Origin: a virus
Reading direction: 5' to 3' (one strand)
IMG/VR virus record: IMGVR_UViG_3300001848_000311
Location: 1-26,926 of that record
Length of the DNA stretch: 26,926 nucleotides
Shown here: positions 4,912-5,893 of the stretch, piece by piece
Numbering within the stretch: position 1 is the stretch's first letter
Layout: the number at the start of each line of letters is the position of its first letter
Notes under the pieces: model-generated
What the model was told of the DNA's origin: nothing
Databases searched by the model: none
The model's input: the letters and a program-made list of their open reading frames with translations, nothing else
Translations under genes and position numbers: made by a program

Positions 4912-5382
4912 TTAAGCCACTTTCTTCTCTTGCAGAAGTTGTGGTTGAAACTCCGTTAGATCAGAACCAATTTCAATCTTACGGGCTTTCTTGCTTTCTG
5001 GAATAATATTTTCCAGACCAATGCGTAGAATACCGTCTTTTAAGTCGGCACCCTTTACTTCAACCGTATCAGCAATACTGATAGATTTGGTGAAAGACCT
5101 TGCACCAATACCTCGCTGAAGATATTGTTGATACTGATTGTTTTCTGCTTTTTTACCAGCAATGGTCAGAGAACCATCTTTGGTAGTGATTTCGATTTCA
5201 TCTTTAGAGAAACCAGCTACTGCCATCTCAACAAGATAACGAGAATCATCTAGTTTTATGATGTTGGTAGGTGGAAAGTTAGATACGGGTTTCACATCAT
5301 TAGACAAGAATCTTTCAACTTCATCTAAAATTCTGTCGTAACCCAAAAATGATGAATGTGCAAATGGTGTAAATGCTGCCAT
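4912..5382 (-). CDS. hsp20: Small heat-shock protein Hsp20 (alpha-crystallin family)
   Basis: ATP-independent holdase chaperone, 156 residues from the ATG at 5382. An upstream in-frame start at 5403 would lie inside the leader hairpin and is rejected. The alpha-crystallin domain spans about 38-125 (IIKLDDSRYLVEMAVAGFSK, the strand SLTIAGKK, a variable loop, then RSFTKSISI). It ends with the conserved GILRIGLEN (117-125). The C-terminal IXI motif (IEI, 136-138) that links dimers into oligomers is present. Family members are common in T4-like aquatic phages, where a role in capsid or tail folding is suspected. A good AGGAG site lies 6 bases before the ATG, but it is predicted to be paired in a ROSE-like hairpin. 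A late-type promoter motif lies about 140 bases upstream. Confidence 0.95.
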   Translation of the reverse strand: MAAFTPFAHSSFLGYDRILDEVERFLSNDVKPVSNFPPTNIIKLDDSRYLVEMAVAGFSKDEIEITTKDGSLTIAGKKAENNQYQQYLQRGIGARSFTKSISIADTVEVKGADLKDGILRIGLENIIPESKKARKIEIGSDLTEFQPQLLQEKKVA

Positions 5383-5388
5383 AGTTTT

Positions 5389-5487
5389 CTCCTTATTAAG
5401 CAAGTTAAATAATCCAACCCATTAGGCGTTGGCACCGCTGATTATTTTACTACCCTTCAACGGTATGGTAGTTCCCATCCCTGGGAT
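5389..5487 (-). promoter_or_regulatory. Structured hsp20 leader with ROSE-like RNA thermometer candidate
   Basis: The whole gap between regA and hsp20 can fold. Reading 5' to 3' on the minus strand, hairpin 1 is TCCCA/TGGGA (5473-5486). Hairpin 2 is ACTACC/GGTAGT (5449-5472). Hairpin 3 has outer stem AAATAAT/ATTATTT and inner stem CCAAC/GTTGG (5407-5447). Hairpin 4 pairs TTGCTT with the ribosome binding site AAGGAG around a 3-base loop (5389-5403). The last hairpin has the hallmark of ROSE thermometers: a U(U/C)GCU strand facing the Shine-Dalgarno with a central G-G opposition. ROSE elements are known for bacterial small heat-shock genes. The fold is my reading by eye. Confidence 0.6.
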
Positions 5488-5491
5488 ATTC

Positions 5492-5893
5492 TTACTGATG
5501 AGGCTTCTTACCTATATTATATTTAGGCACTAACTGCCAATCATCCTTTTCCCTGAAAGAAATAATTTTAATTTGATGCAACGGAGCAATTTCTTCGCCA
5601 ATTAATTGAGGATTCATAATTGTAATGAGACCCCATTCTTCTAATAATTTAGCTATCGCATTACGCCTTTGAATATCGTTATCTGAAATATTAGAAGGCT
5701 TTCCATCTAAAGCAAATAATTCTTTGAAATGCACCAAATAATAGTATCCCTGTTTGTGCAAAATGTGACAGGACTGATATAGGATTTTATCTTTGCGTGA
5801 TGAAACTCCTATGCGAGTGAGTGTTTCTCGGACCTTTAAAAAATCATCCTGTTCGTTGAGTTTGACCTCAATAAATTTAGCCAAATCTATCAT
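5492..5893 (-). CDS. regA: RegA translational repressor
   Basis: RNA-binding protein that blocks translation initiation of early phage messages. Its sequence follows T4 RegA (122 aa) nearly end to end: DDFLKVRETLTRIG (16-29), KDKILYQSCHILHKQGYYYLVHFKE (34-58), then ALDGK, DIQRRNAIAKLLEEWGLI, IISFREKDDWQLVPKYNIG. This one has 133 residues, the extra length being at the N-terminus and in the loop before IISF. It starts one base after the gene 62 stop, with the ribosome binding site inside gene 62, so it is coupled to the clamp-loader genes exactly as in T4 (order 45-44-62-regA). The 3' end of the gene carries a late-type promoter motif that seems to serve hsp20. Confidence 0.97.
   Translation of the reverse strand: MIDLAKFIEVKLNEQDDFLKVRETLTRIGVSSRKDKILYQSCHILHKQGYYYLVHFKELFALDGKPSNISDNDIQRRNAIAKLLEEWGLITIMNPQLIGEEIAPLHQIKIISFREKDDWQLVPKYNIGKKPHQ
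5518..5528 (-). promoter_or_regulatory. Late-type promoter motif (GCCTAAATATA) upstream of hsp20
   Basis: The minus strand reads GCCTAAATATAATATAGG inside the end of regA. It resembles the T4 late promoter core TATAAATA with C for the first A. The same 11-mer occurs once more, at 25254-25264, just after the gene 23 terminator. With T4 geometry transcription would start near 5513, giving hsp20 a leader of about 130 bases that covers the ROSE-like structure. Confidence 0.5.

Follow-up and report, generated by a model that had tools for sequence, protein, structure and literature searches.

The leader of the hsp20 gene in this phage DNA carries what we take, at a probability of roughly 0.8, to be a short two-hairpin RNA thermometer of the ROSE type (nucleotides 5389-5433, minus strand), by which hsp20 would be translated mainly when warm. 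The window, that is, the whole stretch of 26,926 nucleotides analyzed, is a 26.9-kb fragment of a virus record whose source is a T4-like phage, and its major head protein shows 64% identity to the counterpart in cyanophage P-RSM6. The hsp20 start codon, ATG, occupies nucleotides 5380-5382 of the minus strand, the Shine-Dalgarno (SD) sequence AAGGAG (5394-5389) lies six bases ahead of it, and the leader is bounded upstream by the stop codon of regA, at 5492. A scan of the window for sigma-70 promoters and terminators gave nothing useful on the minus strand. The genes and the parts of the two-hairpin element are located as follows.

4912-5382, minus strand: hsp20, coding for a 156-amino acid small heat-shock protein of the alpha-crystallin family (Pfam HSP20, E=7.1e-17; PHROG 432 Hsp20, E=2.7e-36).
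5389-5394, minus strand: SD AAGGAG, the sequestered strand (identified by sequence and by column conservation in alignment A5).
5389-5404, minus strand: ROSE hairpin 2, the candidate thermosensing hairpin, CUU-G-CUU / AAGGAG with triloop AAU (R1 match; 98.3% of helix-2 cells paired in 88 leaders; weak Rfam ROSE_3 match).
5405-5413, minus strand: A/U-rich linker separating hairpins 1 and 2 (alignments A2 and A5).
5414-5432, minus strand: ROSE hairpin 1, CCAAC-G-CC-UAAU-GG-GUUGG, in which one G is bulged (7 of 8 pairs change on both sides, A5).
5492-5893, minus strand: regA, the translational repressor gene upstream of hsp20 (Pfam Translat_reg, E=6e-47).

The conserved unit consists of a bulged-G hairpin followed by the A/U-rich linker and a U(U/C)GCU/SD hairpin. 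In the latter, which in the transcript sense reads CUUGCUUAAUAAGGAG (5404-5389), CUUGCUU (5398-5404) opposes the SD, and G5401 is either bulged or opposite a G. A sequence-only reading of this DNA had described the pairing of TTGCTT with the AAGGAG SD, which is indeed present in the hsp20 leader on the minus strand, and had attributed four hairpins to the thermometer. All four stems can be drawn, namely UCCC/GGGA (5473-5486), CUACC/GGUAG (5450-5471), CCAAC-G-CC/GGGUUGG (5414-5432) and the SD hairpin (5389-5404); the thermometer unit, however, comprises the last two only; the other two form a separate module ahead of it, a small hairpin with an H-type pseudoknot. Three of the characteristics by which ROSE-like elements are defined in the literature were found here: U(U/C)GCU in the 3' hairpin imperfectly paired with the SD, one G being bulged or facing another G (CUUGCUU, 5389-5404), at least one further hairpin upstream (hairpin 1, 5414-5432), and a position ahead of a small heat-shock gene, within its leader (Pfam HSP20). 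A fourU thermometer was ruled out, as the anti-SD is CUUGCUU and not four consecutive U.

The minimum-energy fold of the window leader was not significant (z = -1.19; 28 of 200 shuffles fold equally well), an ordinary result for a single sequence that is what chance complementarity to the SD would give. A covariance model, R1, was trained on 12 marine phage leaders with the window and its freshwater relatives excluded. Early MAFFT alignments had put the SD in the wrong place because the hairpin-2 loops vary in length, and the model was therefore seeded from a same-length subset. When R1 was run on both strands of the whole 26.9 kb, the top match was exactly 5389-5433 on the minus strand (E=1.6e-4) and the next had E=0.88; on 463 kb of phage loci all matches with E<1 were hsp20 leaders. 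The E value of the window match together with conservation over 88 distinct leaders leaves chance pairing with a negligible probability, and conservation by itself already refutes it. The training set of a second model, R2, took in the window and some named phages, and the R2 score of the window is not counted as evidence for this reason. Scanning 11 named phage genomes, some of them in the training set, and two IMG/VR records with R2 yielded strong matches one per record, all of them hsp20 leaders. The weakest per-locus E values among the named phages were those of HTVC008M (0.014), Atu_ph07 (0.025) and phage 30-3 (0.002), and R2 whole-genome scans with stricter filters missed the leaders of Atu_ph07 and phage 30-3.

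Relatives of hsp20 were collected from IMG/VR, 80 loci with the window protein and 80 with the P-RSM6 protein, to which named phages were added. Among the 169 leaders with enough upstream DNA, 164, a figure that takes in two bacterial-looking records, can be read as a hairpin with a bulged G and then, ahead of the SD, a CTYGCT-type motif; the remaining five are visible variants of the same layout. Every one of the 22 named phages whose hsp20 annotation was usable has the two-hairpin element. They come from Synechococcus, Prochlorococcus, Pelagibacter (long- and short-tailed phages), Methylophilales, Agrobacterium (Atu_ph07) and Pseudomonas (phage 30-3), and include cyano-, pelagi- and methylophages and two jumbo phages. 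Two further records, L090 (MG065691, 'Campylobacter phage A11a') and L091 (OQ572409, 'Pseudomonas phage Y7'), were kept out of this count. They contain bacterial hsp20/ibpA genes with ROSE_2 and ROSE_3 leaders, the Hsp20 protein of L091 is 99% identical to the P. aeruginosa PA7 protein, and both sequences are probably host contamination, i.e., bacterial DNA. Since hsp20 lies behind regA in several cyanophages as well as in the window, the leader might be thought a binding site for the RegA translational repressor, or for another RNA-binding protein. We consider this very improbable: the element stays with hsp20 beside non-regA neighbors in HTVC008M, HTVC103P, Atu_ph07 and P-SSM2, and it matches the ROSE elements of bacteria, where there is no RegA.

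Covariation was assessed on 92 model-aligned leaders, 88 of them distinct, in an alignment that is fitted to the model and leans towards structure. In the 88 distinct leaders 95.7% of the paired cells were paired, as opposed to 80.4% with shuffled partners and 52-64% with slid partners; 9 of 14 pairs changed on both sides (6.2 in shuffles); and the covariation score was 0.376 versus 0.127 shuffled, with all slid controls far lower. The sequence-only reading had staked its proposal on compensatory changes in the hsp20 leaders of related phages and on conservation of TTGCT opposite the SD. Double-changed cells numbered 167 versus 54 in the shuffled sets, and CUYGCU opposite AAGGAG is nearly invariant across the 88 distinct leaders with a covarying hairpin 1 ahead of it, so that the proposed U(U/C)GCU-versus-SD arrangement is borne out in the relatives. 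Hairpin 1 covaries strongly and provides most of the signal, with double-sided changes in 7 of its 8 pairs, and covariation supports it more than hairpin 2, for which the signal is weak because this hairpin hardly varies, as is expected when one strand is the SD. Support for hairpin 2 comes instead from the invariance of the facing CUYGCU and from joint changes in a flanking pair (C is matched by G in 9 of 9 cases and U by A in 6 of 7, the other being U-C). At the Y position of CUYGCU 67 C-G and 14 U-G pairs were found in the 88 leaders, and the neighboring positions are invariant.

Among the Rfam families, ROSE_3 (RF02523) matched the window leader weakly over 5377-5433 (19.3 bits, E=0.072 in a 261-base stretch). 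Higher scores were obtained with the best phage leader, that of locus L050 (36.4 bits, E=1.2e-6), and with the leaders of Melnitz-3 (34.1 bits, E=1.6e-6 in the whole genome), Atu_ph07 (28 bits) and P-RSM6 (23.7 bits, E=0.002). The alignment to the model runs end to end, positions 1 to 69 of 69 including the bulged G of hairpin 1, for the window, L089 and L050. The ROSE models, a search that had been suggested from the sequence, thus do pick out the window leader, at a score below the gathering cut-off of 43 bits; no phage leader tested reached this value, and a gathering-threshold Rfam search of the window and 20 loci returned no match. As judged from sequence, the element is ROSE-like by the literature definition and by the Rfam threshold is not yet a member of the family. 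Conversely, R1 and R2 both find Pseudomonas ibpA leaders, which score 45-79 bits with ROSE_3 and belong to a class of two-hairpin thermometers that reporter, probing and mutant experiments have proven (Krajewski et al. 2013, PMC3669281). The Pseudomonas and phage elements have in common the small heat-shock gene, a hairpin-1 bulged G next to CC/GG, a single-stranded linker, an SD facing U(U/C)GCU in the 3' hairpin, a free start codon and a length of about 60 nt. The phage elements differ in that hairpin 2 is shorter and A/U-rich with a loop often of 3-4 nt, in that the sequence of stem 1 has diverged, in their frequent location right behind a T4-type late-promoter-like box, in an Rfam score below the gathering threshold and, in the window, in the pseudoknot module that precedes the element. 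The phage element very probably works like, and is related to, the short two-hairpin ROSE. ROSE1 (rhizobia, Bradyrhizobium hspA) and ROSE_2 (enterobacteria, ibpA) likewise control small heat-shock genes by a U(U/C)GCU/SD hairpin but have three to four hairpins rather than two; ROSE_2 gave a weak match to L050 (15.4 bits, E=0.4). Cyanobacteria also possess thermometers of small heat-shock genes, those of Synechocystis hsp17 and of Anabaena, one Anabaena element being described as ROSE-like (PMC4166951). According to a review, the Synechocystis hsp17 thermometer is a single hairpin, and the two-hairpin element of the cyanophages therefore does not seem to have been copied from it.

In the proposed mechanism, hairpin 1, a stable bulged-G stem, would fold first and hold the register. 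In cooler conditions hairpin 2 would conceal the SD AAGGAG by pairing it with CUUGCUU across the bulged or non-canonical G. Modest warming would then open the weak hairpin 2 first, because of its unpaired or G-opposed G, while hairpin 1 remains closed, and ribosomes would start on hsp20 mainly once the infected cell has warmed up. That the melting falls within the physiological range, and that it controls Hsp20 protein during infection, is what we infer, and thermosensing is argued here from probable family membership rather than from energies. In silico deletion of the conserved G fully closed the SD, a prediction in line with the stabilizing single-nucleotide deletions that repress the Pseudomonas elements (PMC3669281). 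The phage leaders are predicted to be tighter than shuffled ones, with a median SD openness of 0.22 versus 0.40 at 20 C. For the window the predicted values at 20 C are rather open, 0.64 for the ROSE part alone and 0.42 for the full leader, and its nearest-neighbor hairpin-2 Tm of 31 C is the lowest, the phage median being 53.5 C (36-69.5) and the Pseudomonas controls 61-80 C; as the energy model lacks the G-G and triple pairs of ROSE, these Tm figures serve as a ranking only and the weak SD helix predicted for the window is not decisive. In ensemble predictions the median SD openness hardly moved up to 37 C, in the Pseudomonas leaders as in those of the phages, with no clear thermal switch, and such models therefore cannot tell a thermometer from a static lock. 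A static translational attenuator, in which the two hairpins merely set a lower level of hsp20 translation with no response to physiological temperatures, would fit the small shift in predicted SD openness of the phage leaders from 5 to 37 C, as well as hosts that inhabit water with small temperature swings. We regard it as unlikely, since an equally flat prediction is obtained for the ibpA leaders of Pseudomonas, whose class is proven to act as thermometers (PMC3669281), and since a static lock would need neither an invariant helix-destabilizing G nor a link to genes for heat-shock chaperones.

Of 102 distinct leaders, 73 have a late-promoter-like box of the T4 type (TATAAATA-like) whose end lies 1-8 bases, mostly 2-4, ahead of hairpin 1, compared with 3.4% of shuffled sequences; no such box was found just before hairpin 1 in the window. 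Where it is present, we infer that the transcript would start at the thermometer. This location is also what would be expected if hairpin 1 behind a late promoter protected the 5' end of the mRNA as a transcript-end or RNA-stability element, the SD pairing being incidental. Such an explanation appears quite improbable: it leaves the near-invariant anti-SD CUYGCU unexplained, the box is absent from that place in 29 of the 102 leaders and in the window, and hairpin 1 is common to bacterial ROSE elements. The thermometer and transcript-end roles could coexist. In the Melnitz-type phages and their relatives (L069, L072-L080 and L084), a common stretch, ACTCTG..., with a hairpin of the GGTAGTTTCC...AAACTACC type, is found just before the hsp20 late-promoter-like box. 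A second conserved block, GGCGTCCGTGTAATTACACC...CCAGTATAAGGTAAGCTGG, precedes the ROSE element in L020, L026, L029, L030, L035, L045, L047, L049, L068, L507 and L614, with no Rfam match at the gathering level.

IMG/VR was also scanned, blind to the gene, with the DNA pattern ACTYGCTT-n-AAGGAG-n-ATG. Among the matches listed, at least 240 sites, at least 204 precede hsp20, and several of the non-hsp20 sites precede truncated hsp20 ends. Six to seven of the listed sites stand before genes for a family of proteins of 63-90 aa (L280, L334, L366, L369, L391, L490 and perhaps L313), and another, on an IMG/VR contig, precedes a full-length AhpC peroxiredoxin gene (L273:1907-2470, minus strand) with a ROSE-like leader (R2 E=2.2e-5). 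The leaders of the small-protein family and of AhpC all include hairpin 1 (R2 E<=4.3e-5). The likeness of the small proteins to phasins was by eye only, and Pfam, PHROGs and NCBIfam gave it no support. The genes of this family behind the ROSE element, with products given as 70-90 aa, are the following.

L280:1385-1600, minus strand: small-protein family gene.
L334:741-968, minus strand: small-protein family gene.
L366:2084-2299, minus strand: small-protein family gene.
L369:6319-6531, plus strand: small-protein family gene.
L391:2531-2803, minus strand: small-protein family gene.
L490:757-1014, plus strand: small-protein family gene.

The separate module (5433-5486) upstream of the thermometer in the window has three parts.

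5473-5486, minus strand: conserved 5'-terminal hairpin of the module, UCCCAGGGAUGGGA (exact motif common to late-promoter-proximal leaders of other phages).
5450-5471, minus strand: stem-loop P1 (CUACC/GGUAG) of the H-type pseudoknot (equivalent architecture with different sequences in other loci).
5433-5441, minus strand: 3' strand of the pseudoknot helix, UCAGCGGUG (complementary to the P1 loop).

The P1 loop, UACCGUUGA (5457-5465), pairs with 5433-5441, and this architecture is kept with different but complementary sequences in L280, L366, L369, L513, L530, L545, L571 and L594; the mean stem plus pseudoknot score was 12.2 versus 4.9 in 60 rounds of shuffling, the maximum of which was 7.9. 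The UCCCAGNGAUGGGAA hairpin and the pseudoknot lie directly behind late-promoter-like boxes in L280, L369, L513, L523, L530, L545, L571, L594 and others. Most loci with the pseudoknot module have a ROSE element and then hsp20 or a small-protein gene downstream. The module gave no Rfam match at the gathering level. Another structured leader RNA of small heat-shock genes is the manA motif (RF01745), which has been reported upstream of the chaperone gene ibpA in marine and T4-like phage sequences (PMC2864571). It is a large riboswitch-like candidate with a different structure, and it was ruled out as the identity of the module since RF01745 matches none of the window and 18 related loci. In L513, L514, L530, L545 and L594 a structured-looking block, CACCUUAGGACCGCUAAG...GCUGG...GUAACCAGC, is found between the pseudoknot and ROSE, about 60-170 nt past the TCCCAG motif; riboswitch-like in look, it showed no significant Rfam match (L545).

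RNA thermometers known in phages are those of lambda cIII, the fourU of SPbeta blyA and the fourU of sigma70 in one gut Caudoviricetes phage (PMC11182007); a 2024 paper counted SPbeta blyA as the second phage RNA thermometer and added a third (PMC11182007). These too are RNA structures in phage leaders with temperature-controlled translation, but they are unrelated structures from single phages, are not ROSE and do not precede heat-shock genes. Cyanophage Hsp20 has been shown to be active as a chaperone, with no mention of its leader. The sequence-only reading knew of no described ROSE element in a T4-like phage, and the open-access literature, with subscription journals and preprints mostly outside its scope, likewise yielded no paper linking ROSE to phage hsp20. 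A ROSE-type RNA thermometer before a heat-shock gene appears to be previously undescribed in viruses. We lean towards the view that aquatic phages (T4-like cyano-, pelagi- and methylophages, and some jumbo and short-tailed phages) carry their own old ROSE lineage as a standard part of hsp20, often at a late promoter, spread to a second small gene family and sometimes found behind a new 5'-terminal pseudoknot module. As natural thermometers from cool habitats the phage leaders would form a large collection, and their helices are predicted to be weaker than those of their Pseudomonas counterparts. If such a lineage exists, phage gene expression would sense temperature directly, at translation. 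Judging from the leaders compared, nearly all hsp20 genes in some of the most abundant viruses of lakes and oceans appear to carry a heat-shock thermometer, which, if true, would tie the production of phage chaperones directly to the warming of the water and offers a simple testable hypothesis on why and when phages use hsp20.
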